The notes under the pieces are model-generated. The model was not told where the DNA came from and ran no database searches. It saw nothing but the letters and a program-made list of their open reading frames with translations. From Halichondria panicea (taxonomy: Eukaryota > Porifera > Demospongiae > Suberitida > Halichondriidae), in NCBI RefSeq assembly GCF_963675165.1, contig NC_087381.1, positions 3,472,001 through 3,536,000 of the forward strand: DNA of 64,000 nt, read 5' to 3'. Position numbers and translations under genes: made by a program. Below, piece by piece: positions 3,101 through 30,700 of the stretch (the stretch's first letter is position 1; each line of letters starts with the position of its first letter).

Positions 3101-6100
3101 ACTTGTGATAGTGAGAAGACACAAACCATAAATCCTTCGAATTATAGTGCACTAATCCATGTTGGCCTACTAATAGTAGTACTATATATACGTGCATCAG
3201 TTTTTTATTGGGATGGAAATGGGTTGTGTTATTTGCTAGGTTCATCTCAACTAGTATATAGACGAAATGTATGTGTAAGCATTTTGAAGTCAGCAGTTAT
3301 TATGTATAATTATTATGTAAGTGCTCTATGAAGTATCAAAGTTAGTTTCCATGCATAGGTAATTGTATCTTGTTTCTTGAATCAATGAAATTTTAAAATT
3401 TTGTTTTGCGTGTCTGTTTCCATACTATCTAATTCCTACTTTACAGTGATCATTTGTCCTGCTCTGGCTGACGTGAGCAACAGTGAACTGTCGTATGCTA
3501 TTCCTGACTCCTCTGGTGAGGTAGTGTATAGCACAGTGGCCTCATTCGTGTGTCTGGATGGCTATTACTTGGTTGGAAGTCAAACTAGAACATGCACTGG
3601 GAATGGGTTAACCATAACTGGAACGTGGACTGGAAGCAATCCAACTTGTGAAGGTTAGTATAATAATTATATAGCTCCTATACTAATTTGAAGTCTTGTA
3701 ATACGTAGTAATTTTGTTGAATAACTGTCGCATCTTGTCAGGTATGTTCGTATATTTTGTTGTTTGGATTCTGAATGACAAGACATATGAATGTGATATA
3801 GGTATAAAATTATGGGTTAAGTTTCCTTTTGGTCCAATTACAATGTCATTCATAAAATTTTGTGTATAATTATACTAAGTCTCTGTTACACTATGCTGTT
3901 GTAAGATTTCCTGCTTTTTTCATATAGCAATTAAATGTTCCAGTTTAACTGCTCCCACTAATGGAGTCATCACCTACTCAACTGACACTACTGCTCCATT
4001 TGATTTTGGTACCACAGCCACTTATGTGTGTGACCTTGAATTTGGGCTGTCCAGTGAAAACCGAGAAAGAAACTGTGGTGGATCTAATCGACTGGGAGAG
4101 TGGAGTGGAACTTCACCAACTTGTGAAAGTAAGCTACCGTATAGCTAGTGCGAAATTTTCGAGGGGCTTAATCTTCGCGGATTTCGTGGGTAGCAATCCT
4201 ACACGAAAATTAAGTCCACGAATGAAAAGTGTTTTTTAATTAGAATTACCTGCTATAACGTGCAAAGATTTAAAGGCATGGCTTCCGGTAAGCAGTCATT
4301 CCGCGAACATTGTGCAACGAAAATGCTTTTAGAGCTAGGCCAATCTACGAAATATAAGTGCCTTGAAAATTTCGCACTATACGGTATTTAGATCCCACTT
4401 GTGTGTGTTTAGCAGGGAATTATGAGCCATAATCTCATAGTTTCCCAGGGAATTATAAGCTTGAGGGTATAATTAAAGTACAAGTATAATTTTTGAATGT
4501 ACAGAAATGATAATAAAGCTGTAGCTGCATGATAATTAGCTATGGCTGTTCAGTTTTTTCACTACCAGTTTCTATAGCGTTTGCTGGGTTGATGGTAGAG
4601 TTCACCAGTATCTTTTCTTGTCTCTACGAGGAACACTAAGAGCCAATGATTTTAACAGTTCTGGGTCCATTGTCACAAGCATGATGAAAGCATGTCTTCA
4701 ACTTGTAGCATTTGTCAACTTTGTCATCCTGTTTCTATCCTGCAGCCATGTTTCAAATTGCAGTAGACTCCTGTGTCTTTTTGGGAACGATAGTGCACTA
4801 TAGCATTGCTGCAAGCTGTTCCTTGCTAGCTAGCCGTACATATCAAAACAGTTTACTGAGAAGCTTGAGCTGGGGTGGTGCTTGAGTGCAGAGAAAGAGG
4901 AGGCTGGGCTCATTTGTTGTAGAGCGCTTCCTACACAAGGTGGAGTCACTAGTTTGTCCATTCCAATGTTGAAGCAAGGCCAATGCAAAGGTTTTTTTTA
5001 GCAGAAATCATCTAGACTAGCTTGTCAGAACAGGACATTTTCAAAAATAAAACTGTTGCTAAGGCTTGCTGCTTTTATAGATACACTTCTTGCCTGAGGC
5101 AACCAATGAAAAGTGGGATCTAAATCAGTTAGCACATGTGCATTCGGTATCTATGGTTGTAGTGTCCCTCATCCCTCGGGCAAAGCCCTCGTGATATGGG
5201 ACACTATAACACATAGATACCTCATGCCCATGTACTATCTATAACTTAAAACTATAACTATAATATTTATGCAGGTATTATTATAGTTGCTTACCCATGC
5301 CAGCCAATCCTAGTTATACTACAAGTTTTCCGGACTAGTTTGTCACTTTGCTAAAAATGTACTGCGTGGTTAAGTATTGTCAATAGAGAGTTTTGAGCAA
5401 ATGCAGTAAGTAACTTTTTTCATCACAATTCCATGGATCAGGTTTAATTTGTGAAGTTCATGACTGCCTTATAGTAGTATTGTCTCATCAACGAATACAT
5501 GCATTCCTGTTCACTTCGTAGCAATCCAGTGCACCGATCTTCCCCTTGTTCCCAATGGAATTATCGACTATGGACCCGACAACACTGTGGCTCAATACTC
5601 TTGTGATACTGGGTACTACTTGCAAGGCAATGATGCACGATCATGCGGTGGCAATGGACTGAGTACAGTAGGAGTATGGAGTGGTAGGGATCCCAGCTGC
5701 CTAGGTAAGTAATAAATTGCTATAATTAACTATGGAACAATACTATATAATAGTCTGTGATTACGACTTTTCATACACACCAAGCTTAAATAGCTAAGCT
5801 CTAGTGACAAAGTGTATAATATGTACAGTCCTCGAGTAGAATTGGTAAGTATCTCTGACTGTCACGCAAAAGACCATGCATTTAATTCCCAGTCATGAGG
5901 AAGTTTCCTTTTGCAGCTGATGTTGAGTTAGACATGTACTGATATATCCTCCTATCAGATCGATGTCGTACTGGCTGTCTAAACATTACTTTTTACAGCT
6001 GTTACTTGCCCAACGTTACCCATTCCCATTAACGGGCTCATCAGTTTCTCTTTGGACACAAGTCCTCCCTACGATTTCCAAACTGATGCGAATTACCATT

Positions 6101-7641
6101 GCCGCACTGGATATGCACTGTCCGGTGGAGACAGAGTTAGATCCTGTGTTGGTTCTAGTACAGGGCCTGGAGAATGGAGTGGAGTTGCTTCAATTTGTGG
6201 TGGTAAAATGAGCTATGTAATCATGTTGGGGGTATACTAGTGTGGTCATGTCAAGCACGTATCTCTACCTGTCCTTAATTTGAAAGACCTGGATTAAAGT
6301 CTGTTTAACACAGGCTCAGCTGTTTATTGATAACTGCATGGTGTAAAATCACATATGATTCTCTTTGTCTTGCTATCTAGCTAGTATATACCTCCCTCTG
6401 GTTTGACTACATGACAGGATGCCCTTTGGCTTAAAATACACCTTATTTTTACCATAGGGTAGAAAGGCGATTTTATAATAATTTGTACAGTGGTGGGATT
6501 TCCTTTACCTACAGTATACATTGCTACAGCGTTAACGTGCTCTGGTCTCTCTGTCCCTCAAAATGGAAGAATATTTTTCACTCCCGACACCACCTCTCCT
6601 TACGACTACAATAGTGTGGCAACCTACGCCTGTAACCCTGGGTTTGGGCTCACTGGAGGAGACCCGACCAGGACTTGTGGGGGAGATGACTCCAGCACCA
6701 GTGGGGTGTGGAGTGGAACTGCTCCTGTCTGCAATCGTAAGTAACTTAGTTGCATAGCTAAATGTAGCTTGAACAACCATAAAACACCCATTCAAATAAT
6801 TTTAATGCTGTATATATACTAGCTTGCGGACCGGACTGCTAGTCCTAATCTTGTAGCCACTCTGTACTTGTTTCAAATCTGCCAGATGTTCATAATTTAT
6901 GGTGTTATTTAAATTTGTTTGTTCTTTTCATCAGCCATCACTTGCATACCTCTAAACTCAATCGATAATGGAATGATCAGTTACAGTGGTCCAGACATCA
7001 CTGCTCCGTTTGACTTGGGAACAGCTGCTGTATACACATGCAACACTGGGTTCTTTCTTGAGGGTAACATGATGAGATCGTGTGGTGGGAGTGAGGCCAG
7101 TATTGTTGGAGCCTGGGATGGAACCAATCCACGCTGTTCAGGTAGCGAACTGAAGGCCCATTCCATGTACTATACAACATTTTGTAAGATCTGTTGTAGG
7201 TGCCTTTGGAATGTTACTATCGTCTTCATAGCCCAGTTGGAAAGGCTGTTGCAGTCTCCTCGTGCATGACAATCTCTCTTATTGTACATTTGTCAATCGA
7301 TTCTTCTTTTCATGCAGCCATCACTTGTTCAATATTGACTGATCCTTCTAATGGAGTCATCACCTACACCACTGACACCACTGCTCCGTTTGACTACCAA
7401 ACCACTGCCACCTACTCCTGTGACGCTGGCTTTAGACTGTCAATTGGTTACACTGCTAGAAGTTGTGTTGGGTCAACTAATGGTCCTGGAATATGGAGTG
7501 GAACTGCTCCAACTTGTGAAGGTATTCACTATTTACATACACTAGCTGACATTGTGGTTGCACAGTTTTATGTTTGCCTTGCATGGGTATGTGGTAATAA
7601 TTATTATGCCTCGGTGCGCATGCGCAAGCGAGGTATACGGT

Positions 7642-7676
<35 letters not shown>

Positions 7677-10600
7677 CTGTGTAGACTGCTACAGCTGCTC
7701 AAAGATGAATCAAGTGCAAGTAAGAGTTTCTATAGGCTTCTAGTCATGTTTACTTGGATTTTAATTCGTGGATTTGCAAAATAATGCTTCGTTCTCGAGT
7801 TGTGCCTAGTTTTGCTTACCTGGAATGCCATTGCAGCCTTTTCAGAAGAGCACGTAGCCAAACTTGTTTACCGAGTGTTACTACTCTACCTAGTAGTTAG
7901 CTCTGCACTAGAACGCTAGCTATTGGTAGCTGCAAGAGTGAGGAAGAGAGCTGCAAGGCTCTGCTGATGGCAGCCATTAATTTTACACTTGAACTTTTGG
8001 CATCGATCGTTTTTAACAACAATCATGATCGATCATTACCCACTCTTTGAGTTTGCATGCAGCAAAATAATTATTGCAAAAAATTGCTCAAAGCATTATG
8101 TTATGTAGCTTTGGCATCTCCACCGAGGCATCAGCACCTGCGGTGCTTTCATTACCTCAGAAAAGCCTACCAACGAAATATAAGTATACTAGATCTACAT
8201 CATGAATTATTATTGAGTAAAAGAAGTAAATCCATTTTTTTGTAATTTTAGTTTTGATGTGCTCTCCCCTGCCTGAGCCGACCAATGGTGCCATTCGTTA
8301 CGTCACATCAGAATCTGACTCCCCTCCCTATGAGCTGGGCACTATAGCTGAATACACATGTGACATTGGCTATGGGTTCCCAGTCAGTGGAGTAGTACCA
8401 GTGTCGGCCATCTGTCAGAGTGATGCTCAGAGTCTCAATGGAGAGTGGATCGGTGCTCAGTTAACTTGCTCACGTGAGTGTTCTTATGGCTATGAAGTTT
8501 ATTTATGCATTGGAGAGTACTTAGAGAACTCCTACTGATGAATGGCACTGAATAATTGTTATTTCTGCAGCAATTCAGTGTAACGAGACTGACCTGCTTA
8601 TCAGTAATGCAACTACAACCATATCTCCAGACAGCACTCCCCCATATGGCTACAATAGTGTAGCAATGTTCACCTGCAATGAAGGCTATTTTCTGTTTGG
8701 TGATATGAGTAGAACCTGCTTGGGAGATGGAGTTACAGATGGTGGTTTATGGAGTGGAAGAATGCCACTCTGTGAACGTAGGTCTTCCAACATTATAATA
8801 ACTGCATACTTCAGCGTGATTTAGTTTATATATGAGTTTACGCATATATTTTTGCATCGTTTATTTTTTCAGTTGTGACGTGTCAGAGTTTGTCAAGTCC
8901 GAGCAATGGCCAGATTGACTACCAAGGTGACACTGCAGTTCCGTTTGACTACCAAACCACTGTCACATACTCTTGTAATAATGGCTATGGACTGTTTGGT
9001 GGAGATAGAGTGAGAACATGTGTCAGCTCAAGTGCAGGTCCTGGAGAATGGAATGGAATTGCTCCAACTTGTGAAGGTTAGAATAATTATTACTAAGGTA
9101 TATCACATGCAATTCCGTCACAATAATTATTGATGATATTTTGCTATACAGTGTAACTTCTAGTAAATCTACTAGTCTATGCATGATATTCCTTATACTA
9201 AAATATTGTTGGTATATAGGTGTTGTTTGCACTGCACTAACTGCTCCGGATAATTTTGGAAGAGTTTCCTACTCTCCGGACACGAGTGAACCATATAATG
9301 TTAGGACCGTGGCCACTTACTCTTGCAATACCAACTTTGGGTATGGGCTCACTGGATCTAGTACTAGAACTTGTGTGGATGGAGATAGACTGACCATTGC
9401 GGGAGTGTGGAATGGAGTCTCTCCAAGCTGCGACTGTAAGTGTGTAAACAGCTCTTAATTGTACCACACTAACTTTCGTGGTATTACCACTAGGCCACCT
9501 TTTTCCCCTAATTTAAACCTTGCTAACTTATAGCTGATGTTTCTCTACTTTAGATATTGTATGCCCTGATCTCCCTGAACTAACCAACGGAGTAATTACA
9601 TTCCAGTATCCTGCTCTAGCGACCTCCCTAGTTTTCGAAACACAAGCATTCCACTCTTGTAACAATGGTTACTATCTCCAAGGATCTGCTATCAGAAACT
9701 GCACCAGTGACGGGGCAACTAGTGTTGGGGTCTGGGATAGAAACGAGCCAAGCTGTCTAGGTATGTATACCTATCACATTTCAAGTTGCGTATGTAAATA
9801 GCAAAAATCATCTATTTCAGATATCACTTGTACAAGCTTGACTGTACCAACTAACGGGTTCATAACATACGTATCTGACACAACATCTCCTTTTGACTAT
9901 CAAACCACTGCCACCTACGGTTGTGATGCTGGCTTTGAACTGTCTGGTGGAGACAGAGTGAGAAATTGTATTGGCTCCAGTTTAGGTCCTGGAGAATGGA
10001 GAGGAATTGCTTCCATTTGTGAAGGTTTGTATTATAACAATTATTGGCTTCTCAGATTATATTCTGTTTTTAGGTGTCATGTGCACCTCTTTGCCTGATC
10101 CTGATAATGGCGAGATCCAATATTCTCCCGATACTACTGCTCCTTTTGATTATGAGACTATAGCAACTTACAGCTGCAATGATGGGTTTGGATCAGTGGG
10201 AGTAACTGAGAGACTCTGTGGAGGAGATGACCCTAATGCCGGGGAATGGTCTGGTAATGGAGCCACCTGTGACGGTAAGAAAAACAGTGCAAACACTGTG
10301 GCTCAATATCTCACAAGAATCTGCATTTGTGTGACATTTATGATCGGAGTCAGACGGTATGCATTTTTTCTGTCCCTGTGCATCTAGATAACTGTTTACA
10401 TTACTTTTCACCATTATGCAGATGTGACCTGCTCGTCACTGAGTGCAATCAACAATGGACTAATAGTGTACAGCAGTGCAGGGAGTCCATACGCGTATGG
10501 AACAACAGCCACTTACTTGTGCAATGAAGGGTTATTCTTGGAGGGCAATGCAATGAGAACTTGTGGGGGAGATGTTACAATCGGATCTTGGGATGGCACA

Positions 10601-13600
10601 AATCCAGTTTGTTCAGGTGAGGTTTGGAATGTGCAAACTTCGCGTGACTGGGTACAATACATTCGTTCGTGAGCCAGAACCACTTGTGTTTGTGAACTAA
10701 AATTTTACTTTTCACCCTATATACAGGCATCTTGTGTCCAACTCTACCCCCACTGGCAAACGGCACAATAGAATACAGTGAATCAGCGACTTCACTGGGA
10801 TTCATGGCCACTGCCACCTACAACTGTAACACAGGTTATGCACTGTCTGGTGGAGACAGTGTGAGTACTTGTGGTGCCTCAAGCTCAGGTGCTGGGGAAT
10901 GGACTGGAATCCCTCCAACCTGTGAACGTAAGTAGGCCAGTTTAAACTATACATACACCTTGATTTCTTACGTAGTACGGGAAGCTTTAAAACAGAGCTG
11001 TTTTATAATAAGTAGTTTCAAGTTTGGCGTACATTACCAAAATGGGTCCATAATGGCTTTAGTGCACCATTTTTTTCTGGTAACTGTACTTATAAGTATA
11101 GTCCGTGTGAAATTTGGCATGCATTTGGTCGCGTATAATTTTGCTCGATCAACTGATACCTATTCTAATACACTATTGCAGTGATTATGTGCTCAGCATT
11201 ACCATCCGTTACTAATGGAGAGATTTTCTACTCCACTGACGTTATTGCACCTCACGACTATGGCACTGATGCTACAACTGTGTGTAACCCTGGTTATGGG
11301 TTAAGGGTAGGAGGAACGAGGTCCTGCTTTGGAGACGGGTCCAGTACCACTGGATACTGGCTTGGAACGCCTTCATTATGTGATCGTACGTTTGACATCT
11401 ACCATTATTGAACATCACTCCTTTAAGAATCTGTACGCATGCACACATTCTGCGTTCATTAACATACAACAAGCTTTGTGCCACCCTTTTGTATACATAT
11501 ACAGCTATCAAATGTTCTCAACTGGATCCAATATCAAATGGGATGATCTCGTATAATCCAGACAGTGTTGTTGGTTCCTATGACCTGGCTACGATTGCTA
11601 CACACTCCTGCAATGAAGGGTTCTATCTATCTGGAGCCATTACTAGAGAGTGTACAGGAGACATTTCCTCTTCATTTGGAAGCTGGAATGGGAGGAGTGC
11701 ACCAACTTGCGTCGGTAATCTACGATTATAGTGTTATGCTAAATAGAAAATTAACAGAATACCAGTCATAAAAGTTGGTGTAATTCCCATCACAGCTATT
11801 GAATGCCCCAGACTGACAGCTCCAACTAACGGATTTGTTGACTACACTCCAACCTCTGACACTTTCCCATTCGACTACCTCGCCACGGGTACATTCCAAT
11901 GCAGATTTGGATACCGACTGGCTGGTGGGGATACTGTCAGGACTTGTGTCGGTTCCAGTTTTGGACCTGGAGAATGGACTGGAACAGATCCTATCTGTGA
12001 AGGTTGGTATATCTGATAACATAGTTAGCTGATATCATTGTCTTTTTTACAGCGCTAATGTGTCCGCAATTGTCCAACCTTACCAACGGCCTGGTGAGTT
12101 TCTCCACATTAGAGATGGACTTCCCTCCGTTTGAGCTGGGTACAACAGCCACCTACATGTGTAACTCTGGTTATGGCCTAACTCCCAGTGGGGTGGACCC
12201 CATTAGGCTGTGTGAGAGCGATGATGACAGTCTCAATGGAGTGTGGACTGGACAGGAACTCTTCTGTTCAGGTGCTAACTACAATATGAGAATTAAATTT
12301 GTTTTGGCATGTGATTTCAATACAGTACTTTCAACGTATAGGTCAAACCATAATTACGGATTTACTCTGTATTCAAAAACTGTATGCTATTTCCATGCAT
12401 ATTTCAGCTGTCCTGTGTGATGCACTGAGTCCACCAGGCAATGCAATCTTGATCTATGGACCTGACACTGCTGAACCGTATGATTTCGGCACTGTTGCTA
12501 CACATCAGTGCATTGATGGGTTTGATCTGGTGGGAGATGGAATGAGAACATGTGTCAGTGATAGATCTGGCACCATTACTGGCATATGGAACAACTCTGC
12601 ACCTGTATGCTCTCGTAAGTTTGCTAAGGCTTAGTTTTACCTCAGGTAGGTTCGGCACGTCTACAACTATTACCTTAAATTCAAACTGATCATGTCCACA
12701 TGGACTTTCTACAATGTTACTTATGCATTACTGTCAGTACAATACATGCACGTGAGCTACGAATAGACAGTTTACAAAGTTTACTATTCCCTATCGCAGC
12801 TATCGTCTGCACTGCTCTGTCTGTTCCTGATAATGGACTTATTTCATACTCTCCTGACACCACCCCTCCCTTTGATTACCTCACCACTGCCACCTATGAC
12901 TGCAATACTGGGTTTGCACTCTCTGGTAGCATTCCTCGTACCCTGGCTGTCTGTGAAGATTTGAATGGCGGAGAGTGGGTTGGAGGCAGAAATACCTGTG
13001 AACGTGAGTTGTGTTTTGGTGGTACACTGTACGAGTGGAGTAAATGTCATGTCTAGAACCCTTGCTATATAGAATGAAATTTACCTTAGACATGCATCCA
13101 TAGTACATCATGCTTGGTGATTTCAGTCGATAGACATGAAAAACATGCCATAAATTCTTCAAATCATCAAATTAATGTTTTCGTTTGTGCAGCTATCATG
13201 TGCAGTGGTCTTCCAACTCCTATTAATGGAGTACTCATCTACAACACCGACACCACCCTACCGTATGATTTTGGGACTGTGGCCACTTATCAGTGCAACT
13301 TGGGCTATGGTCTGATTGTTGCTACTAATACCAGAGCTTGTAATGGTGACAGCTCGTCAACTGTTGGAGTCTGGGATGGAGTGGATCCTGGCTGCGACCG
13401 TAAGATGAGCAGCAATTTATTACGGAGTGTACATGTGTATATACATGTGCTTATTATAACCCTAACTCTAACCCTAACGCTACACACTGTGGTTCTCATC
13501 ATAGAAAATGAAAAAATCTTTTACTGTACGGAATTTATATGGTCAATTATTATTTCAGGCATCACGTGCTCCGTTCTACCTTTAATCAGCAATGGAGGGA

Positions 13601-16600
13601 TTTCTTACAGTACCGAGACCACTGCTCCATATGACTTCACCACGACTGCCACTTACTCCTGCAATGACGGCTTCTTCCTTCAAGGCTCTGACCGTAGGGA
13701 GTGCACAGGAGATTCAGCTGATACTGTTGGCGAATGGAGTGGCAGTGCACCAGTTTGCTCTGGTATGATAACACGAATGACGTCACACATGTACATGTAC
13801 ATGTTAACTTAATTTCACAATAATCTGTACATAATAAATAATTTATAACTGCCTTTGCATATTTCAATTAAGTCACTGAATTTTTTCTACATGCAATAAT
13901 CAACCTAACTTTTTTCTTGTTTTCAGCCATAACATGCTCAAGCCTAACTCCACCCATTAATGGAATGATCACTTATGCGTCTGATACTACTGCTCCATTT
14001 GACTACCAAACCACTGCCACCTACTCCTGTGATAGTGGATTGGGATTGACTAGTGGAGACGTTGTGAGGAGTTGTGTTTTTTCCCGAACTAGCTCAATAG
14101 GTGGAGACTGGAGTGGAACTGCTCCAACCTGTGAAGGTATGATTGTGCATGCTACAGTGAAACCTCTATGCATTTTACGAAAGGATTGTCCTTACTATAA
14201 ATATGGACGTCATTATGGGATATGGGCTACTGTCCCTGTACTTTTTTAATGGCATCCTTTAAACTAAGAGGTTCCAATATCTAAAGATGCTGACCGTTAC
14301 ACCACCAACACTTGCTCACATGTCTTCATGCTGTTTCTATCACAGCTCAGCGATTTCTCAAAAGTTTGGCGATTATTATATTTGGTCAATGAGCCATTTG
14401 AACCGACATGGCATTTTTAATTTGGTGTCTCAGGTGTGACTACTTACTACAGTATTGACGTTGTGTCCACCGTACTTTGACGGTTTTAAATTTGACTATC
14501 CTCAGTCAAATCCGCCAAATTATAACAACACTAAATGTTCCAGTTATACAGAGGGGCGTCTAAGGGGGTGGGGTGTTTTTGAGTTCTCTAAATAGATTTT
14601 TCACTCAACGTCTCAATTATTTACTATATAGCAATAATGTGCACGTGTTGCTAAACTTTGATCTTCTTAGCACCCTATACCTACAATCATCTGGTGACTG
14701 CATATAGAAAAGTATAGCAATGTGGGTTATTGTTTGTATGGTAACAATGCATACCCGTATACGACTAACGCTTGCTCATATGTACATATTGGTCTAGCTC
14801 TCATACATCAGCATTGCCATAATGTTGTATACACATTATGTTGCTAATAATAACATGTCCTTGTTTCAATGTCATTGGCTCATTTCTGCAGCTATCACAT
14901 GTTCGCCGCTTACCTCTATTGTAAATGGACGCATCAACTACTTCACGGACACAACTCCTCCACTTGATTTCAATACTGTGGCTTCTCATTTGTGCGATAC
15001 TGGGTATGGGATAGAAGGAGATGTAGACCGGATTTGTAGTGGTGATGGCTCCAGTCCTGTAGGAGTGTGGTCCAGCACTGCTACGACTTGTGGTGGTACG
15101 TACTTCAAGCTTTCTTCTATGTTCCAAACTGTATACTCAACCCATTATACCTAGAAGCACTGGAGATACATACATTAAGTTACAAAATTCATAAAGAGTT
15201 TCTATTGTAAACAGTTTGCCTTTAATACTATTTGCTCACACTATAGTACTTTTCTTTGCTTGTAGTTGTCATGTGTCCCACACTTGATACTCTCGACAAT
15301 GGTGTCATCACTATCATCCCTCCTCCCGGTACCACTACCAGTGACTATGGCTCGTTGGCCAATCATGCTTGTATCACTGGCTACTATCTCAGTGGGAATC
15401 AGCAAAGGAATTGCATTGGAGGAGGATCCAATGGTGTGGTGGGAATCTGGGATGGAGCCCCGCCCTCCTGCGAACGTTAGTTTATTTCAGTAATACGTAT
15501 AATCAGGATGCAACACAGCTGAAAGAAACATTATATTTCTTTTCTCATGTAGTGATAGAGTGCTCCCAGCTAAATGCTCCAGACAATGGATTCACAACAT
15601 TCTCTCTGGGTACTGCTGCACCATATAGCTTCACCACTACTGTCACCTACGGCTGTGTTAGTGGTTTTGGACTGTCTGGTGGAAACAGAATGCGAACATG
15701 TGTCAGCTCAAATGCAGGTCCTGGAGAATGGAGTGGAACTGCTCCAACTTGTGAAGGTATAATAATATTGTTGAATTGAGCTTGAGCTGCCATGTCTATA
15801 GCTGTTGCTTTGTTTCAAGACTTTTGTCTGTTCATACGCTACATTGATCCTTATACTACAGTTCTAATTTGCACTTCTCTGCCTACTCCTGATAATGGAA
15901 GAATCATCTACTCTATTGACTCTACTTCACTGTATGAGTTTGGCACTGTGGCCACCTATGTTTGTGACTCTGGATTTGGGCTGAGTGGGGGTGTGATCAG
16001 TAGTACGTGTGGTGGAGATGACTCAGATCCAGTAGGAACTTGGAGTGGAACTGCTCCATCTTGCCTTTGTGAGTTATAAATAGCCAGTCAAATTCATATG
16101 CAAGTCGTATTACACACATACTGTGTAAACTAATGCATAATTATGTGTACTTCTAGATAAACATCTAGCCAGTGTTTTTATATGCAGGTTAAGCTGTATT
16201 TTATGTGAAATAAGTATATAGCTGATGCCATCCAATTTTACTCCCCACAGCTATCACCTGTACGTCACTGAGTTCCATCAGCAATGGAGTTCTTGTGTAC
16301 GGTCCTGATAGCACTAATCCATTCAACTTTGGAACTATTGCCTCGTACACCTGTGATGATGGATTCTACTTAACTAGTGGTAGTGACGTCAGAACTTGTG
16401 GTGGTGATGGTCTAAACACAATTGGATCCTGGAATGGAGCTGCTCCTGTTTGCCTAGGTTAGCACATAGGACCCTGCATCAAGGGGGGCAGGTCTCACTG
16501 TATGTGTGGGGTTTACTTTAATTCTATACTTTCTTCACAGCTATTACTTGCACCAGTCTAAGTGCTCCTTCCAATGGTGACATTGTGTTTGCTACTGACA

Positions 16601-19600
16601 CAACTGAACCATTCAACTACCAAACCACAGCTGCGTATAGTTGCAACACAGGATATAAACTTTTATTAACAGTTGGAGACAGAGTGAGAATTTGTGTAGG
16701 CTCAAATGCAGGTCCTGGAGAATGGATTGGAGCAGCTCCGACTTGTGAAGGTATCTTACTACATAACAAGCAAGAATTGTAGAGCACACTATAGCGATTG
16801 GGTACTGTAAGCTAACAATTTTCTGATTTTCCCTGTTATGTATGGATGGGGATGGTATAATTATATAATTATATGTTTTGCCCATATAGTTATCACATGC
16901 TCTGGTCTGGCTCCTCCTACTAATGGCGTAATCAGTTTCACCAACCCCATCGCCCCACATGTTTTCGGCACAGTTGCCAACTACACTTGCAATGTCGGAT
17001 ATGGATTAGTCGGGAATGTGGAGAGGAGTTGTGGCGGACTCATTGGAGAGTGGGACGGAAGCAATCCTACATGTGTTGGTGAGAATTTATGTATATCTGG
17101 TCTCCAAAGTATATAACCATCAGATCTGGAGTATACTCATCTAAAAAAGATTTGACGTTATACTTTATTGCTACTTCACCTTTCAGTTTGTAGCAATGTC
17201 ATACGTACATATACACGTCGTCATGTGTAATTGTGTGATTGATTCGCTTTGCTTCTCCATTGCAGCCATCACCTGCACATCTCTGAGCCCCATCAGCAAT
17301 GGGATGATCAGCTATAGTCGTGGCATCACTAACCCTTTTGACTTTGGTACTATTGCTACTTTTGTGTGTGACGATGGATTCTTCCTGGATGGATCAATGA
17401 CCAGTACTTGTGGTGGAACTGCATCTGTTGGCTTATGGGATGAGTCTAGTCCAATCTGCTCAGGTACGATGAAAACAGTACCAACAGTACATGACGTTTG
17501 TTAGTTTTGTAGTACAAATGTACTAACAGTTTATTATTATTATGCCTGTCTCAAATTTAGTTGTCTAAAGTTATCACTTTTTACAGCTATTTTGTGTCCA
17601 AGTTTGTTGAACCTTATCAATGGATTCATCGAATTTTCTGAGAGTACAGCAGATTTGTTTAATTACCAAACTGCTGCCACTTATGTGTGTGACACTGGTT
17701 TTGGATTGTCTGGTGGAGACAGAGTGAGGACATGTATTGGCTCGCTCGGTGGGCCTGGAGAATGGAGTGGAACTGCCCCAATTTGTGAAGGTTAGACATG
17801 CGTAGTAGTTCTCCAGGTACTAATTTTGGTGAAAATGTTATTTCCTCAATAATATACCGCGTGGTCTGTATATAGCATTCTTGCGTGCCGTGTTATAACT
17901 GATTTCAAGTGGGATCTTTGAATAAGCATGTCTATACATTTGTGTAGGTGTTGTTTGTACTGCACTATCTGTTCCGGATAATTTTGGACGAGTTTCTTAC
18001 TCTCCGGACACGAGTAAACCATATGATGTTGGGACTGTGGCCACTTACTCTTGCAATACCAACTTTGGGTATGGGCTCACTGGATCAAGTACTAGAACTT
18101 GTGTGGATGGAGATGGGTTAACAAATGTTGGAATGTGGAATGAAGACGCTCCAACTTGTGACTGTAAGTTGTAAAATGAACAGCATGTACACTAACACAT
18201 TTTTGTACAGATATTTTATGCCCTAATCTCCTTGGACTTGCAAATGGAGCAATCACATTCCAGTATCCTGCTTTGGCCACCACCCCCATTTTTGGAACAC
18301 AAATCTTTCACTCTTGTAATGATGGTTATTACCTTCAAGGATCTGCTATCAGAAACTGCATCGGTGACGGGGCAACTAGTGTTGGGGTCTGGGATAGAAA
18401 CGAGCCAAGTTGTATAGGTACGTATATGCAATCAGAGCACGAGAAATGCAGTCGTCTAACAGTATATAGTTATGATCTAGGTGATGGCAGCAAGAAAAAA
18501 ATGTCATTGAAATCTTTACTGCAGAGGTTATTTGTCCCAGTTTGGCAATCCCAACCGATGGATTCATTACCTACACTCCTGACACCACTTCTCCATTTAG
18601 CTCTCAAACTGCTGCCACCTACGGCTGTGATACTGGTTATGGATTGTCCGGTGGAGACAGAATGAGAACTTGTTTCGGCTCTAGCTCAGGTCCTGGAGAA
18701 TGGAATGGAACAGCTCCAATTTGTGAAGGTAAACCAATACCTTTCTCACTTCATTCACTACTCCTTGTATCCTTAGCAACTACATGTGCTGACCTTGTGG
18801 ACATTGACAATGGCTATGTGGCCTACGCTTCTGGAGCAGCCACTTCGCGACCATTTGGAGATGTGGCGTCTTACATTTGTGATACTGGCTACTCACCTAG
18901 TCACACCATATCAAGGGTGTGTGGTGGTGATGGACTGAGTCCTGCTGGGGTGTGGAGCGGAACTGTGGCCACGTGCACTAGTGAGTTTCCTAAAAAACAC
19001 AAGGATGCAGAGGTCAAGTTTCATGTCCACTAATTAGCGCTGTTTACATAACCATTGGCTGAGATAGCCAGAGTATCGTCGGTTATCTTGTCTTCACTCT
19101 CTCAGTTATTCAGTGCCCTGTGCTGGACTCCATTAGCAACGGAGATGTCACTATCACCCCAGCAGCTGGTTCTTCCAGCTCATTGGACTATGGAGCAGTT
19201 GCAAGGCACTCCTGTATGAATGGGTATTATTTGGATGGTAATGTAATTAGAACATGTACTGGAGATGGAACTACAATGCTTGGATTATGGGACGGATCGG
19301 AACCTAGATGTCGAGGTGAAGAATATAGTCATAAAGTAAAACCTGTAATTAAGTGTTTATATTTGCTCATAAACCTTTTGCAGCAATCGAGTGTCCTGTC
19401 CTGGCTTCCCCAGCCAATGGTTTCATATCATTTGATCTCGATATAACCGCTCCATATAGTTTCCTTACTACGGTCACTTATGGCTGCAATACTGGCTTTG
19501 GGCTTACTGGTGGGGACAGAACCAGACAGTGTAGTAGCTCCTCTGCAGGTCCTGGAGTGTGGATTGGAACCGCTCCTATCTGTCAAGGTATCTCTATACA

Positions 19601-21674
19601 CTTTCAATTCACCTGAAGTCTATATTATGCATGACATACTTCAGTCCTAATATTTTTTGCCTCTGTTGAATGATGCATGTTCGTGATTTTTATGATTTCA
19701 TATCTACCTTCTACAGCTATCAATTGTGTCTCACTACCATCACTAAGAAATGGGATGATTGTTTACAGTCCTGACCTTAGTGAACCATTTAGTTACGGAA
19801 CATTGGCCACATTCTCTTGTAATGATGGCTTCCAGCTGGATGGCAGCAATCTCAGAACTTGTGCAGGAGATGATTCTGTGACTATAGGATCATGGGGTGA
19901 CCCTTCTCCTGCTTGTGTTCGTGAGTGGCTTTTGCATGATGGTTATGGATGGGCCCTTAGTGCATCAGCATTAGTCCAGCCTTTTTTTTATTGTTAACTT
20001 CATAAAAATTAACTAACGGTAAAGGTTCAAGCATTTCAGTTATTAATAGATCGATATAGATGTATAGTCAATAGTAAACTTACGGAGTCTTTCATCTCTC
20101 AACCTTTAGCCGTCTTCTGCTCACTGCTGCCTGATCTTGCTAATGGAGCCATCACCTATGGATCAGACACTACTGCTCCGTTTGATTACCTCACCACGGC
20201 TACTTACAGCTGTGACTCAGGGTATGGACTAGGTGTGGCTCCGATGGGTTTCATGAGGACATGTGGCACAATAGGAGAATGGACTGGGTCTGATGTGACC
20301 TGCGACTGTAAGTTGATCTGTCATGTCTACATGAACTACACATCAGCAAAAGCCAAACACATTCAGTAATTCTATGTTGTAATCCTGATTTTAAACGTAA
20401 AGAACTTTGATTCATTTTTCACTCAGTTGTCATGTGTTCTGATCTCCCTGCTCTTGACAATGGACGTATTGTCTACTCGACTGGCGTCACCTCACCATAT
20501 GACTTCAGCACTGTGGCCACCTATGTCTGTGACACTGGGTTTGGGCTAACTGGAGCTAGCACTAGAACTTGTGAGGATGGAAATGGACTGACAAATGCTG
20601 GAGTCTGGAATGGAGTTGCTCCATTTTGTGAATGTAAGTATTAACGAACATGTCTCGGTTGAATACACTATAAGCTTTTGCATTCTCCCCCTATAATTGT
20701 ATTGAGCATTTAAACTTACAAACGTAAACAGTATACAATCTTTTCCCTATAGATATCACCTGTTCTGCTTTGGCCTTGGTTAACAATGGAGTGATAACAT
20801 ACGACCAAGCTGGTTCTGTTGCGTTCTCATTTGGAACATCTGCCACCCACACTTGCTCTGAAGGTGTCTTCTTGGAAGGAAATGCAGTGAGAATATGTTC
20901 TGGTGATGGACTAAGTGTGACTGGATTGTGGGATGGCATCGCTCCTATTTGCTTAGGTACAAAACGTATAATTGTCTATGTCCTTGAAATTGAGTCTGGG
21001 CGGGCTGAGTAAAATTGAAGGTCTTTCATTATTATTCATTGTTAGCTGAATTTGAAGATTTGCTGGACTTTATGTATTAATGATTGTTTGTCTTTGCATA
21101 TATCATGGTAGTTCTTAGCCAAGTCAGTTCATATCCTTCTTTGCAGACCACAGGTGTTTTGCTGTTCTTCCCAACCCAATGAATGGATTCATAACATTTA
21201 CTGAGGATACCACTTCCCTTGGGTTCATGGCCACAGCCACCTATGGTTGTGACATGGGGTTCGGACTATTAGGTGGAGACAGAGTGAGAACTTGTGGCAG
21301 TTCGAGCTCTAGTCCTGGAGAATGGAGTGGAACTTCCCCAGTTTGTGAAGGTACGTACATTTCACTGCAGAGTAATACATATATATACCATGTTGTCCTT
21401 TCCCACAATTATAGCTGTTGTGTGTTCTGATATCCCTGCTCCTGACAATGGACGTATTACCTACTCCACTGACACCACCTCACCTTACGACTTTGGTACT
21501 GTGGCTACGTATGTGTGTAACACTAGGTTTGGACTAGTTGGAGTTGGTAGCAGGTCGTGTGGTGGTGATGATACCAGTCTTGTTGGAAGTTGGAGTGAGA
21601 CTGGTTCAACCTGCGAAGGTTAGTGTACAGTGAAAGCTGTTGCAGTCTCTTCAGAATCTTTTATAGTGTGTGCC

Positions 21675-21736
<62 letters not shown>

Positions 21737-24700
21737 CCCCCTATGTGTGCGTGTGTGTGTGTGTGTGTAGCATATTCTGTTTGTACAAAGCACTTGATTA
21801 GTTGTGCTTACAAAGATGGCTATATAAATTCAAATAAATTTTCGTGTTCTTTTTTGATATTGTACGTAGGCATGATAAGAATTACTTACACACACTGACA
21901 GCCATCACTTGTCCATCTTTGAGCCCCCCGGGGAGTGCTCAGATGATCAGGTACAGTCCTGACACAACTGCTCCATTTTCTCATGGAACCACTGCGTCAT
22001 TCTTCTGCGCTGATGGATCCTATTTGGATGGAGTACAAACTAGATTATGCAGTGGAGATGGGACTAGTACTAGTGGATTGTGGAGTGGAATGATGCCAAC
22101 TTGCCGAGGTACATAATTATGTGAACTTGCAGTATATTATAACTGTTGTATCATAATTATAAATCAACCACTAAGTACGTATAATCTACATTTCAATTTT
22201 GCATACAAACATACAAAGTATCACACAGTTAAGTTTACCTTCGTTATTAATTGTCTTGCAGATATTACTTGTTCGAGCTTACTTGTTCTAGCCAATGGAA
22301 TCATCACTTACACAACTGACACCACTGCTCCGTTTGATGATCAAACAACTGCTACCTACAGTTGTAACTTTGGGTTTAGACTGTCTACAGTTGGTAACAA
22401 TGTTAGAACTTGTGTTGGAACAAATGCTGGTCCTGGAGAATGGACTGGAGCTGCTCCGTTTTGTGAACGTAAGTAAAGTAATTCATTAAAATTAATGGCT
22501 AATCATCTTGATACAGCTCTCACATGTTCTTCATTAACGACACCCGACAATGGAGTGATCATGTACAGTACAATCAGTGCAACAACGTTTGAGTTGAGCA
22601 CCACTGCCTCTTACTCCTGCAACACTGGGTATGGACTTAGTGGGTCACAAGTCACCAGAACTTGTGAAGCTGATGCTATCAGTCTATCTGCTTCGTGGAG
22701 TGGAGAAGCACTATCCTGCTCAGGTGATTACTATAGCTCCATTTACACGAAGCCTTTAATCCGGGTTGGAATCTCACAGTGTTCATGTAAATGGGCCTGA
22801 GATGGGTTAGCTTTGGTCAGAAGTGGGTGTAGTTGTGAGTAAACACAAAGTGATAATTTTGAGGTGCATGTACATGTTTGAGTGTTCGTAGATTACGTAA
22901 GCCTGTAGCTTTTCTATCAGCCCACTGTTTGCGCAAATGCATCGTTTTTACTATGCATGCTACTACTCAGAATAATCTGGCCCGGATTTGACCAGGATTA
23001 GTCCTCGTGTAAACGGCGCTTATGAAGTAACGTTTAAATTCTCGAGTGTACTTTTTTAGCCATAAGGACTTTTTTCAATCTGGGTGGCATTGCAAAAATT
23101 GATACAAACTGTTGTTTCTTACAGCCATTACCTGTTCGACACTAAATTCAATTAGTAATGGAGGAATCGTGTACGTCAGTGACACCACTGATCCATTTGA
23201 CTTCAACACTGATGCCATTTATTCCTGTGAAATCGGCTACTACCTTGTGGGCAATGGTGTGAGGATGTGTGGTGGAGATGGTTTCGGTCTTCAAGGAGCA
23301 TGGAGTGGAAGTGCTCCATCTTGTGAACGTAAGAGATCATAGGAAGTTTATAAATACTCCCTGATACTTATTGCAAGCCAACTACTAAAAACAATGATTT
23401 CGTACATTTCTACAGCTATCACTTGTACCAGCTTGATTGCTCCGGACAATGGATTCATCACGTATGCACCTGACACCAGTGAACCATTTGAGTTTCGAAC
23501 CACAGCCAGGTATGGTTGTAACAATGGCTTTGGACTGTCTCGTGGAGATACTGTGATAACTTGTGGAGCTGCCAATCAGGGAGGGGAGCAGTGGAGTGGA
23601 ACTACTCCAACTTGTGAACGTAAGTTGTTTTGTATGTGTTGCCAAATGGTAATTGTATATAGATCACAAATTTGGGTGAGCAGTAGATTATGAAAGCTTG
23701 CAGCAACTTCTATACCTAATGCATTTGTGTTGAAGTATTTCACCATTAATTTTTCTACTCAGCTGTCATGTGTTGTGATCTCCCTACTCCTGACAATGGA
23801 CGTATTGTCTACTCCACTGACGTCACCTCACCTTACGACTTTAGCACTGTGGCCACCTATGTATGTGACACTGGGTTTGGACTGAGAGGAGGTGACAACA
23901 CAAGGTCTTGTGGGGGTGGTGGACCTACCACAAGTGGGTCATGGACTGGGAGAGCTCCCACTTGTGAAGGTGACACCTGTTACGTATACTGTCATTATGC
24001 AAAGTTTAGATGATATAGGGGTGTGATATATACATGCAGTAGACATAAAATTATATTATGTCTTGACCCCTTTTCTATACTGTGCATTGATCGTTGACAT
24101 AATTATAATGTAGAGAGCATGAAAATAATTATAACATCTTATGCTGCTTTTCTATATTGCAGTGATTTCCTGTACCAGCTTGAACCCTATAAGCAATGGG
24201 ATGATAGCTTACAGCCCTGACTACCTTGATTTTGGTACAACAGCCACTTACACATGTCTTGAGGGCTATTTCCTCGAGGGAACCTCGACTAGGACTTGCA
24301 TCGGAGATGGCTCTGGCATTAGCGGCAATTGGAATGGTGTGGCTCCTGTCTGCTCAGGTGAGTCGTCCGCTATTGTCATTCACCGTATGCAAGATATATT
24401 ATTTGAGGAATACAAGTTTGAGCACTTATCACAATCCCATTCTCCATTGTTCTTTCCCTTGAGACAAATTGATTATTATCTGCTAAATAAGTTCTTTTCA
24501 GCATAACACATAATTATATCCTCCTAGAAATTGTTTGCACCAACCTACCCTCACTGACTAATGGAGTCGTAACTTTTGCCACTGACATCACTTCTCCATT
24601 CGAGTATCAAACCACTGCTACCTATAGCTGTGATACTGGTTATGGACTATTCGGTGGAGACAGAATGAGAACTTGTGTCGGCTCCAGTTCAGGTCCTGGA

Positions 24701-27700
24701 GAATGGAGTGGAACAGTTCCAACTTGTGAAGGTACTAACCTTCACAATTCATGTACCAAGTGTATCAAATGTACTGATTACTTCCTATAGCCATCACTTG
24801 TATGGATCTTTCTGCTCCTACTAATGGGCGCATTGACTACTCTCCTGAAATCACTTCACCCTATGGATTTGGAACGACTGCCATGTATGTCTGTGACAGT
24901 GGATTTGGAGTGAGTGTTCTGGAACCAAAAATTTGCAGTGGTGATGATTCTAGTGCCATTGGAGTTTGGAGTGGAACCACACCAACTTGCACTGGTATGT
25001 TTCAATAATCCTTTTTGTTGCAGTGTGATAATAGTAATAATATTATAGGCTCAGTTTACGATACATTTTTATGTTCATTTGCAACGCACTTATATAACCC
25101 ACTCAAATGCTGACATGCACTATGTCGTTTTTACTTGTATTTTAAGTGAGCAACGACATATCTTTCACAATTAAGTTGTTTTGTTTTTATCCCTACAGTA
25201 ATAATTTGTGAATTCCTGAGGCCTATCAACAATGGGTCGCTATCCTACAGTACACCTGCTCCCTACGAGTTTAACACAATGGTAATTTACTCATGCGATG
25301 AGGGATTCTTTCTGGAGGGAGATATGACAAGAATGTGCATGGGAGATGGGCGGAGTGTGACTGGATCATGGAGTGAAGGAACACCAGTATGCTCTGGTAA
25401 ATATACGTGATAGGATTTCTGATTGTTATATACGTAAATTTACCTATCTGGAGATAGCATTGCCTTTGTTACGCTCTTGCCTATAGCTATAGACATAGAC
25501 TCTTCTCTACATGTGCACATGTATAAATAGCAAAATTCTTTAGCTGCTTACCATTCACCACAGGAGATAGCTGTCCAATGCTACAATCACCCACCAATGG
25601 ATTCATTACATTCACTGAGAGCTCAGCCAGTGCCTCTACACAATTCAAGACTACTGCCACATACGGTTGTGAGCCCGGGTTTGGAGTGGCTAGTGGTGAC
25701 GTTTCTAGGACCTGCCAAGATCGAGAGTCGGCTACACCTGGAATTAGAGAATGGAGCGGTACAGATGTAACATGTGAAGGTAGGCCAGTTTGTAGTAACC
25801 ATATTTTTTTTGTATGCATTCTGTATCACGTATGCACGTCACAGACTACTCTATTCCAAGCGTGTCATATAATCCCCACAATATCAAATTAGGTGCTTAC
25901 TTACAGATTATTGCCCTGCCATTTACAATCCTTATACCCCACACTCTTAAAATTGAAAAATTTATTTCACAGCGATTGTATGCTCCGATCTTCTTGCTCC
26001 TGACAATGGACGTGTTTCCTACTCTACCGGCACAACTGTACCATATGACTTTGGGACCGCAGCTACTTACACATGCAACTCTGGGTTTGGGCTAGTCGGA
26101 GGAACAGCTCGATCCTGCAATGGTAACAGTTCAACAGTTGACGGTGCCTGGACAGGAACTGTACCAACTTGTGAAGGTACGATACACATGTGTCCCTTTT
26201 AGCAGCTGAATAGCGTTTTTATATCAAGATTTAATTGTGGTACAGTATAGTTCGTGTGGGCTTTTAATACTGTTTTCCCACTCTATAGCTATTCTGTGTA
26301 CATCACTCGCACCAGACATAAATGGAGTCATCATATTCGCTCCTGATAACACCGAACCATTCGACTTTCAAACTACTGCCACCTACGGCTGCAATGAAGG
26401 TTTCTTCTTATTGGGAAATGCCAATTATGACACACGATGGTGTGATGGAGATGGTTTAAGTACTAGCGGAGTGTGGAACAGTACAGCACCCTCTTGCTCA
26501 GGTGAGAGATCCTTCATACCGTATATATACGTAGGGGAATTTTGATGAGTAGTCCATTTTGAAGGAATTTGGCATCTGAAAGATCTTTGCTCGTTCGTGG
26601 ATTTAAAATTGCCTATTATATTATATGGTACACATTCTTGTCAAAGATTACAATAGGCCTCTCCAATTCATTTACTAGTTTAGCATCACTGCACGCACTT
26701 TATTTCCAACCGACTCTATTTTTAGCATTTTGGAGAGGCCTTATATAGCAACAGAGATCATTATAATTATATTATGCCTCGGTTGCACATGTGCAGCAAG
26801 GTATACAGTAATGTGTGTAGAGTGCTACAGCTGCTCAATGACATTGAAGTGCAACAGGAGTTTCTATAGGCTTATAGTCACGTTTTCTTGGATTGCATGC
26901 AGTCAGTGGATTGGCTCATTCTCGAGTTATGGCTAGGTTTTCTGCTATTGCAGACTCTTAAAACTCGTTTGCAGCAACATTTGTTAATATAACTTAGCTA
27001 CTACTTAGTAGCTAGTTCTGTACTAAAATGCTAGTTATATTAGTAGCTGCAAGAGTGCGAAGAGAACTGCAGCCGCACTGTTTCTTCATGAGGACTTTGA
27101 ACTTTCGGCATATCGTTTTTTAGCAATACAATCATGGTCGATAATTTCTCACTCTTTTTACCATTCTCTTACAAATCAGTGTATTAGTAATAATAGTCTG
27201 CTAGTTAGTTGTACTGCATGTATGCTATACATGTAGCTTCCCTACACCAAGGCATCAGCATGCACCCGCGGTGCTTTCAGTAATTTTGTTACACAGGCGT
27301 GGAATGCAGAAGCTTGACTGTACCAACTAATGGAGTCATCACCTACACTGCTGATACCACTTCTCCGTTCGACTACCAAACCACTGCTTCCTACTCTTGT
27401 GACGCTGGCTTTGGACTATCTGGTGGAGATAGAGTGAGAACTTGTGTCAGGTCTAGTTTGGGTCCTGGAGAATGGAGTGGAATTGCTCCAACTTGTGAAG
27501 GTTGGCACACCAAATATATATACTTCACAGCAATTTATTTCACTCATTTACATACAGCCCTTATGTGTTCTTATCTCCCTGCTCCTGACAACGGAGGTAT
27601 TGTCTACTCTACTGGCATAACGACATTATATGACTTTGGGACCACTGCTACTTATATGTGCGATACTGGATTCGGTATTAGCGGAGATAACGTGCTGAGG

Positions 27701-30700
27701 ACTTGCAGAGGTAGTGGTTTGTCTCCCAATGGTACATGGACTGGGACAGCTCCACGCTGTGATGGTAAGGCTCCATTATTTTCAATGGATGTTTGGAATT
27801 CTTTTCCTTATGGACAAAATTGGGACACAGTCGTGCACTCCTAACAAACAATTGCAAGTGTTTGGGAGCTGGTTAAATTTTAGAAGAAAATGGCTGTAAA
27901 TGTCTATCCTCAAGCAGTACACCAGGCAGCTATATAATATCATGTCTATTGAAGTTAAACATGCTATAAAGTGCACACATATACTGTACAGCTGCATGTG
28001 ATGATAATTGCACGTGTTTATCTTCTGCAATACACATTTTTGGTCTCTCTAACAATCCTGTAGCTGTGACCTGCCCTCCACTGAACTCCATCAGATATGG
28101 CAGCATTGCGTACAGCCCAGACTCTGCTCAGCGCTTCACCTTTGACACTGTTGCTGCTCATTCATGTAATGAGGGCTACTATCTGGTTGGGAGAAGTATA
28201 AGAACTTGTGTGGGAGATGGTTCTACTATTCTTGGGCAATGGAGTGGCGTGCCCCCGATGTGCACAGGTAATGATGTGTTCTAAGAACCACCTCTATACT
28301 TATAATTATGTGTTTTCCAATTATGACAATGTCCATTATGTTTGAGAATTAAAGTGTATATCCCCTCCCCCCCGATATATTGATTCCGTTCACTCTCTGT
28401 AGAAATTGTCTGCTCTGAGCTGCCAAGACCTTCAAGTGGAATTATTTTGTATGCTACCGACACTACTGAGTCGTTCGACTACCGAACTGCAGCGACTTAT
28501 GTTTGTAACAGTGGCTATGGATTATCTGGTGGAGATAGAGTGAGAATGTGTGTTGGGTCTAGTCAAGGTCCTGGTGAATGGAGAGGAACTGCTCCATCTT
28601 GTCATGGTCAGTATCTGTGTACTAATACGTAGATATATACCGTAAATAAGAGTCCATTGTCAAATTAGCTATCATAAATAATTATGCCTATTTTTACATC
28701 ACTGTAACTTCAGCTTAGTTAGCGCATGTCGCAATTGACCTTAATAATTATGTTCAATGCTCAATTATACACAGCTATCATGTGCTCTGCGCTAACGGTT
28801 CCAAGCAATGGAGCAATTCACTTCACCACTGACATGGTTGCTCCATACGAGTTTGAGACTGAGGCCACTTACTCTTGTGATTTGGGGTACGATGTGGTGC
28901 AGGGAAATGAGACCAGAACATGTGATGGTGACGGCTCCACTGCTGTGGGAAGGTGGAGTGGACAGACACCATCATGCGAAAGTAAGTGCATATTAGGTGA
29001 CAGCTGTCTGCTAAAAAAGTTATATCAACGAGTTTTAATGAACACGTTTAATACTAATAATGGTCTATTGACAGCATTGTCAGGTTTATTTTTTATCTCT
29101 ACTGATGCAGTGTATATAGATAGGTTCCAGCCAGGTATTGTAATAAGCTTAACTTCGCAAGAACTTTCTGTGCACATAAAATCACACTGTTAGAGGTAGA
29201 GGCTATATAATTATACTTGATTGTGTGTTTTCCCCCATTGCCCTTGGAAAGTATGTATTGTATGTATTATTCTGCAGCTGTGATGTGTGCTAGCCTACCT
29301 CCTCCTACTAATGGACAGATATTGTACTTCAATGACTCCACCGCACCCTATGACCACGGCACTGTGGCCAACTACATCTGCAACACTGGGTTTGGTATTG
29401 CAGGCGGTGATGTGAATAGAGTGTGTAGTGATGACGACAAGAATACCATAGGAGAGTGGACCAGAACTACACCCACCTGTGAATGTAAGCAGAACTTATA
29501 AAGTGACATGATACTAAATAGGCTGAAATTGGTATAAAACATGTACTACTTGCAGCTATCACATGCGATGATCTCCCTGCCCCTGACAACGGACAAATAT
29601 CCTTCTCCATCTATAGTACATCACGACATGACTTTGGCACTGTGGCCACTTATAGTTGTGAGCCTGGGTTTGGGCTCAGTGGAGGAGATATGAGCAGAAC
29701 ATGTGGTGGAGTGGGGTCAGTCACACAGGGAACATGGAACGGAGCAGCAATTACCTGTGAACGTAGGTTAATAATTCACTTTCTAGTACGGTACCGCAGC
29801 ATATCCTAATACTAGCCTCGATCCCAGGCCGAGTTTTCGCTTTTATAACGGTTAGGCGAACAACTGGGCCTGGTACTAGTTGTCTGCGCATGCGTCAAAT
29901 TTTCATTGTATATTTGTGGTCGGCAAAAATATTTAATAAATCAATAATGGAAATTTGTAGACAGAAAATGCACAGAGTGAGTACACAAAAGATGCACATA
30001 GGGAGCTGCTTCACAAAGGCCTGGGGAGTTGCCAGTTGTGCTTGCAGCACAATTACAGTGACCCAGGGCAACTCAGGATGATTGAATGCCTTCAAATTAC
30101 GTTTCAAAAAGATTTAGCAGGCTGCTGGACTTCTCTGATTCTAGGCCCCAACTCGTAACTCAGTTAAATTTTGCTTGAGAAAACGTAGATTCTCTTGATG
30201 TCTCTGAGCTACCCAGCAACACTCGAATGAGCAGGTCATACTCCAGTCCTGTGAGTATAGGACAATATTAAAAGAAACCAAAGACGGTTAAACCCTTACC
30301 TCAAACTGTCCAGTCTCGTCCGTTAGTATAGCCAAGAGGAGCACTGTTGGGATAGCTGGATATTAGCCATTGCTCCTGTACAGAGAAGTAGACATTTTAA
30401 ATACGTGTATATCTATATTAAATTTCTCGTATTAAACAGGTTAGTGTCATTGTCGACGAGCTGATAATGGCAGCACCAAGTTTTCTAGCTCACACTCTTC
30501 ACTTGATCCACCATATTAGTGATGAAACTGTAGTCTACCTACATACTGGTAGATCTTGCCAAACATGAACAAGACTTGATAGCATAGCCATAGGGCCCAC
30601 ACAAAAAGATCTGACCTTAACAAGCTTGACAAAGCTTTATACCTCTTCCCTTGTTGTTCAGTCTTCAGAATAAGCTTCAGAGAAGAGAGAAGCTTCAGCT

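Follow-up and report, generated by a model that had tools for sequence, protein, structure and literature searches.

Three types of CCP module in regular order along a predicted giant receptor gene of the sponge Halichondria panicea

How does a gene that repeats one small domain dozens of times come to hold its copies in a fixed order of three? The question is raised by a stretch of 64,000 nucleotides from the sponge Halichondria panicea (contig NC_087381.1, positions 3,472,001 to 3,536,000, forward strand; hereafter 'the window', with positions counted from its first letter and negative upstream of it), which carries a long array of CCP (sushi) modules. An earlier note, made from the sequence alone, had counted 85 modules of three types, A, B and C, following one another without a break in modules 10-46 and again in modules 48-70. 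It had proposed that blocks of three exons, rather than single exons, were amplified, drew a parallel with the long homologous repeats of CR1, and considered a three-module structural or ligand-binding unit. We find that the A-B-C pattern is real, and stronger than had been described. The array probably grew by duplication of multi-exon blocks, together with unequal exchange between like modules, as the ectodomain of a predicted receptor.

With a profile built from the window, 85 CCP modules are found on the + strand between positions 1 and 37688, the first being cut by the window edge. A script that looked for phase 1 located splice signals of that phase near the ends of the other 84 modules and at the donor of module 1; by these splice contexts, the exon of module 10 starts at 5999 and that of module 70 ends at 28981. 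The array is divided as follows:

1..5704, + strand: modules 1-9, types A C A B C A C A C, from profile matches and typing; module 1 begins at -86
5999..19587, + strand: core run 1, modules 10-46, (A-B-C) x12 plus A, from the lag test and leave-one-out typing
19717..19920, + strand: module 47, which types as C and has a collinear module in the twin gene described below; the break is a missing B common to both twins
20110..28981, + strand: core run 2, modules 48-70, (A-B-C) x7 plus A-B, from the lag test and leave-one-out typing
29278..37692, + strand: modules 71-85, types BBCABCABCCABCAB, cycle partly kept, from typing

Pairwise protein identity was higher at lags divisible by three than at other lags, by 0.080 in modules 10-46 (z 13.8) and by 0.088 in modules 48-70 (z 9.8), which was reached in 0 of 2000 permutations for each run; the peaks at lags 3, 6 and 9 expected from the note are thus present in both. 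No significant lag-3 signal was detected in modules 2-9 or in modules 71-85 (852 and 491 of 2000 permutations as high, respectively), and in the core runs the signal for period 7 was below or close to zero. Immediate neighbours are the least alike, lag 1 having the lowest identity among lags 1-27 over modules 2-85.

Leave-one-out typing with profile hidden Markov models (HMMs) returned the expected letter for 60/60 core-run modules, and all 58 transitions within the two runs follow the cycle. A simpler profile was right for 58/60, against a maximum of 29/60 in 200 label shuffles. Labels of period 2, 5 or 7 did no better than their shuffles, and period 4 gave 21/60 right (shuffle maximum 24); period 6, a multiple of three, gave 24/60 against a shuffle maximum of 17. 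In 53 of the 60 labelled modules the nearest neighbour by identity shared the type, and mean identity within types was 0.53 (A), 0.47 (B) and 0.44 (C), compared to 0.39-0.43 between types. The type labels and the break at module 47 were taken from the earlier note, which means that one break point was set with the data in view. The register does break there; since module 47 itself types as C, the break corresponds to a missing B and not to an odd module. By typing, the cycle also continues at modules 72-79 (BCABCABC) and, though several Bs are absent, at modules 1-9.

The types are told apart where the note had placed their differences, in the second-cysteine segment and the C-terminal loop. 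The residue right after the GF or GY that follows cysteine 2 is mostly G in types A and B, and F or Y in type C; other diagnostic columns are a GGDR stretch in A and, between cysteines 3 and 4, S versus D and GPGE versus other residues. The three alternating clades that had been predicted appear in outline only. In a tree of 84 modules, the 60 labelled ones need 3 type changes (minimum 2), and when the 24 others are treated as a fourth group the changes are 5 for A, 8 for B and 12 for C (shuffled means 18.9, 18.1 and 17.4). However, good support is limited to 11 of the 81 inner branches, and the 24 unlabelled modules mix in.

The modules are of the CCP family by several lines of evidence. The three submitted to Pfam, one of each type, all match PF00084 with 33.9-35.3 bits (cut-off 20.7), and the four cysteines and the tryptophan are invariant across 45 aligned window modules. 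A model of a type-A module, computed from the alignment of these 45, has a predicted local distance difference test score (pLDDT) of 87.1. Among the best 50 of the 138 rows that Foldseek returned for it, all are CCP-containing structures, with a template modelling score (TM-score) of 0.66-0.82 and a probability of 1.00; no E-value is below 0.001, however, the best being 0.018. The CCP profile matched 102 distinct PDB sequences at E <= 0.01, with CR1, CR2 and factor H at the head of the best 60.

The gene exceeds the window. Thirty kb, and later sixty, of upstream sequence were read, and twelve further CCP modules were found there, preceded 6.4 kb upstream of the window by a signal-peptide exon with its ATG at -6368 (C5:3465632). 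This brings the count to 97 CCPs, one of them a half: the twelfth CCP exon, from -450 to about -240, has a first half that matches the module at -3373 and a second half of unrelated sequence. In this 5' region the DNA at -2198 to -1753 matches that at -334 to 120 (87%), and the DNA at -1501 to -890 matches that at 2495 to 3120 (82%), which suggests that block duplications may have occurred there recently. Downstream of the array, two exons would complete the gene:

37825..37936, + strand: predicted transmembrane exon, a hydrophobic stretch whose acceptor and donor are compatible in phase
38496..38934, + strand: predicted tail exon to the stop, a reading frame joined in phase, with NPLY, NPTY and NPTY and ending YETI-x10-YETM-L

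Both are particular to this locus: the transmembrane exon has two matches in the genome, in this gene and its twin, and the tail has three at E up to 10, all within the same two genes. By its NPxY motifs the predicted tail is that of an NPxY-type receptor. The consensus of the immunoreceptor tyrosine-based activation motif, YxxI/L-x(6-12)-YxxI/L, is not matched by the tail: the distance between the two motifs is within range, but the second has M as its last residue. From these predicted exons, the likeliest product is a giant single-pass receptor, with a CCP ectodomain, a transmembrane helix and a tyrosine-rich tail. It would be a surface receptor or an adhesion molecule, which may signal or be internalised through the putative tail motifs.

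A twin gene lies head to head with this one, upstream of the window on the minus strand (C5:3423263-3464914). Its ATG, at -7086, is 718 bp from the start codon of this gene, and it runs to about -48.7 kb, with a signal peptide, 100 CCPs, a transmembrane segment and a related tail (NPVY, and YETM-x10-YDTL-x10-YETM). In the assembled sequence it may represent a separate gene copy. The two genes have largely the same module order, which makes the twin a built-in control, and a collinear alignment pairs 85 modules, leaving 12 unpaired in this gene and 15 in the twin; the pairs at the 5' end are not certain. One of the unpaired runs, near the 3' end of the twin, is a C-A-B run of three modules, which counts for block copying. 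Over 5444 codons, the rates of non-synonymous (dN) and synonymous (dS) substitution are 0.053 and 0.151 (dN/dS 0.35). The dS is not even: it is 0.06-0.09 in modules 29-76 of this gene and 0.18-0.54 toward both ends, so the middle of the twins may have been homogenised later.

Other CCP arrays of the genome were reached through single-module searches, each with more than 2,600 candidates, of which 150 were scored (a first look gave 4112 sushi candidates genome-wide, of which 150 were scored). Five further arrays were read, making seven in all. Three of them, on two other contigs (C3a, C3b and C6), follow the A-B-C cycle when typed with the HMMs of the window. The transitions in cycle were 50/58 for C3a (mean of shuffles 19.5, maximum of 2000 shuffles 35), 15/20 for C3b (mean 6.9) and 16/18 for C6 (mean 6.3, maximum 13). 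A tree that combines this gene with C3a, C3b and C6 (194 of their 196 modules, two of less than 55 residues being dropped) needs 4 type changes, compared to 92.5 after shuffling. Outside the core runs the types are set by sequence, and the grouping in this tree is therefore partly circular; the order along each gene is not. The strongest identity peaks of these arrays fall at other lags: lag 7 in C3a (z 5.6, with z 2.6 at lag 3) and in C6 (z 7.3), and lag 15 in C3b. Past the last module of C6 (C6:6425501-6435500), one frame resembles a transmembrane segment and another is rich in NPxY (NPAY, NPLY, NPVY), as putative exons read from the frames only; a transmembrane scan 3' of the C3a array gave nothing above threshold in about 1.9 kb.

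The two remaining arrays are young. At C15:3859001-3869000, a tandem of four-module units of about 1,100 bp is 94.6% identical, introns included, and at C1:16320001-16330000, three-module units of about 945 bp are 89.6% identical, again with their introns. These units were found with blastn; Tandem Repeats Finder, with a longest period of 500, reported only 15- and 17-base units there. Both are CCP arrays made of multi-exon tandem units, as proposed for this gene. Unlike it, their units are near-identical and their types are off the A-B-C cycle (cyclic transitions 19/35 in C15, with a shuffled mean of 10.9 and maximum of 20, and 8/30 in C1, with a mean of 6.7 and maximum of 10).

Multi-exon block duplication is a known mode of growth for domain repeats, and the following course is the one we favour, with good though not full confidence. 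An older A-B-C trio would have been the starting point, and blocks of several exons would then have been duplicated repeatedly. Because the exons are symmetric (phase 1-1), such duplications leave the frame intact. In an array that had become periodic, unequal exchange between like modules would add or remove multiples of three and so keep the register; we infer that this exchange was the agent of register keeping. Three blastn matches spanning more than one exon, chosen by eye from the listing, join modules 18-19 with 42-43, 51-52 with 66-67 and 51-52 with 60-61, that is, at lags 24, 15 and 9; the last two cover A-B pairs. In total, 249 of the 268 module pairs linked by blastn are of the same type (33% expected), and within the core runs 88 of 93 linked pairs are separated by a multiple of three modules. 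The partners in an exchange would therefore usually be of one type, which preserves the register. Joint copying of whole triplets is suggested in two cases:

9220..10024, + strand: modules 17-19 (B-C-A), clear triplet copy with modules 41-43
17948..18728, + strand: modules 41-43 (B-C-A), partner of modules 17-19
14892..15756, + strand: modules 32-34 (B-C-A), weaker triplet copy with modules 44-46
18777..19587, + strand: modules 44-46 (B-C-A), partner of modules 32-34

In the clear case, the three pairs have identities of 0.81, 0.80 and 0.70, compared to 0.56 and 0.38 for the flanking pairs (16/40 and 20/44), and the blastn matches are of 88.8% and 72.6%, the latter crossing an intron. In the weaker case, the modules pair in the tree with supports of 84/34, 99/79 and 100/87, and a DNA match was found only for 34/46.

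Several observations weigh against this course of events. Direct proof that triplets were copied jointly inside the array is thin: besides two A-B pairs, it consists of two triplets in the frame B-C-A, one clear and the other weak. In most triplets, age would by now have hidden any joint copying, and the introns of the array are mostly unalignable. The rate-corrected matrix tests are weak once the best pair is set aside. Among the 15 that were run, B with C gave 0.355 (5/5000), which fell to 0.149 without the best pair, C with A 0.154 (178/5000) and A with B 0.089 (602/5000), while A with the B of the next trio (step 4) unexpectedly gave 0.185 (95/5000). The uncentred Mantel tests gave 0.38 for B with C (4/5000), but -0.17 for A with B and -0.22 for A with C. 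Near the 3' end of the twin, an unpaired A-B-A-B run of four modules breaks the register. As for the other loci, the 15/20 of C3b was reached by at least one of 2000 shuffles (maximum 15), and the lag-3 identity peak is absent in C3b (z 0.2) and C6 (z -0.3); the A-B-C order is therefore shared more widely than the peak. Finally, that all exons of the gene belong to one transcript is something we infer. The proposal of the note that blocks of exons, and not single exons, were amplified is supported by the low lag 1, the multi-exon matches and the young block arrays, and is held back by the small number of triplets traced. A further match was seen between introns 13-14 (7678-8048) and 65-66 (26814-27157), of 381 columns and 69% identity, possibly a mobile element.

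Other processes could give the same order. Single-exon tandem duplication as the main mode is disfavoured, neighbours being the least similar of the lags compared. Differences of one module do occur, the B lacking at module 47 being an example, but the whole array arising by duplication of single modules that then converged on three types is highly improbable, given the similarity minimum at lag 1, the 58/58 core-run transitions that follow the cycle, and the grouping of types across loci. The exchange may instead have had a preferred point, the type-A exons, with copied units running from A to A (B-C-A) and conversion keeping the A modules alike. Some facts are in line with this: A-A pairs make up 203 of the 268 linked at the DNA level, the two triplets traced both have the frame B-C-A, and fourfold sites are 58% identical in the C-terminal halves of A, compared to 41% in the N-terminal halves of A and 36-42% in the halves of B and C. 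This silent-site conservation is confined to the type-A exons of the core runs (5999-28981), in their C-terminal halves, and is patchy by column, some A columns being 98% identical and others near saturation. Identical runs are, however, barely longer than in codon-column shuffles (mean 12.4 versus 11.5; longest 27 versus up to 34), two DNA matches span A-B pairs, and a constraint on the exon sequence, for example a splicing signal, would fit equally well. Gene conversion at A modules is weakly supported, and we regard a preferred exchange point in A as doubtful, if the least improbable of the alternatives.

Selection could also hold the register, three successive CCPs forming one binding or packing unit, as in titin or CR1. 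The cycle does survive at unlinked loci, the types differ in surface loops according to position, and passages of PMC10518620 place the binding sites of CR1 on CCPs 1-3, 8-10 and 15-17. Against this, the linkers are of four residues at 54/58 junctions irrespective of junction type, intron length showed no difference between junction types (Kruskal p 0.27), dN/dS between the twins is similar for A, B and C (0.34, 0.40 and 0.32), and the register is broken in every array of the A-B-C kind that was typed. With uniform linkers and no intron difference by junction, nothing indicates a mechanical three-module unit, and since like-with-like exchange alone keeps the register, the pattern does not require a functional one. 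The structural or ligand-binding unit suggested in the note accordingly found no support, and selection of this kind seems unlikely. The same low standing is given to a broader version, in which the trio is a conserved functional super-repeat, a three-module unit of binding or self-association by which an invertebrate recognises ligands or partners, in a family of giant tyrosine-motif receptors whose arrays are re-lengthened by whole trios; it draws on the unlinked C6 locus, with the same cycle and, beyond it, a transmembrane-like segment and an NPxY-rich frame. Block duplication with unequal exchange remains the reading we prefer.

Elsewhere in the window, three other features were observed. 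Between 53935 and 63794, and continuing past the window, lies a second gene region, where Ig-domain frames (Pfam I-set/Ig_3) occur with a row of nearly identical CCP modules (CPPLTAPADGGISYD...). At 47471-49990, the same reading frames occur three times at a spacing of 845 bases, a tandem repeat of non-CCP sequence. A frame on the minus strand at 42458-42760 has a PAP2 phosphatase match (E 1.8e-13).

Sushi-containing genes have been reported in sponges (PMC6208332). Among the closest known parallels is CR1 (CD35), described in passages of PMC10518620 as a type I membrane protein whose CCPs are repeated in sevens and whose alleles differ in length (23, 30, 37 and 44 CCPs). CR1 and the gene predicted here both have a CCP array in super-repeat and a transmembrane segment; the period is seven in CR1 and three here, and the common form of CR1 has 30 CCPs compared to 97 here, where the tail also bears NPxY motifs. 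The parallel drawn in the note is a fair one, and two related arrays (C3a and C6) have a period of seven; this gene does not share that period. According to passages of PMC1553488, domain-repeat proteins commonly expand by several domains at once, as was found by autocorrelating similarity against distance; sushi domains are not mentioned in those passages. Nebulin, whose unit is seven, is intracellular, but, as is proposed for this gene, it adds several domains at a time. Dumpy of Drosophila, made largely of EGF-DPY-EGF triads (passages of PMC2930355), is likewise a giant extracellular array with a three-module unit, although its triad mixes two module families where here there are three types of CCP. 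In the titin A-band, super-repeats are described in which position-specific types recur with conserved positions (PMC10665226). Titin is a functional analogue, having position-specific sequence types along a giant array, but its modules are intracellular FnIII and Ig domains. No three-CCP super-repeat was found in the open literature by titles and abstract openings, a search that left out most subscription papers and all bioRxiv preprints.

This gene is a three-CCP version of such super-repeats, in a longer array and with an order shared across loci. In a single genome of 131 Mb, old arrays whose period of three has eroded occur together with related ones of period seven and with young near-identical blocks of three or four modules. 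Whether the register of modules reflects history or function becomes testable, by whether alleles differ by whole trios and whether ligand contacts return at every third module.

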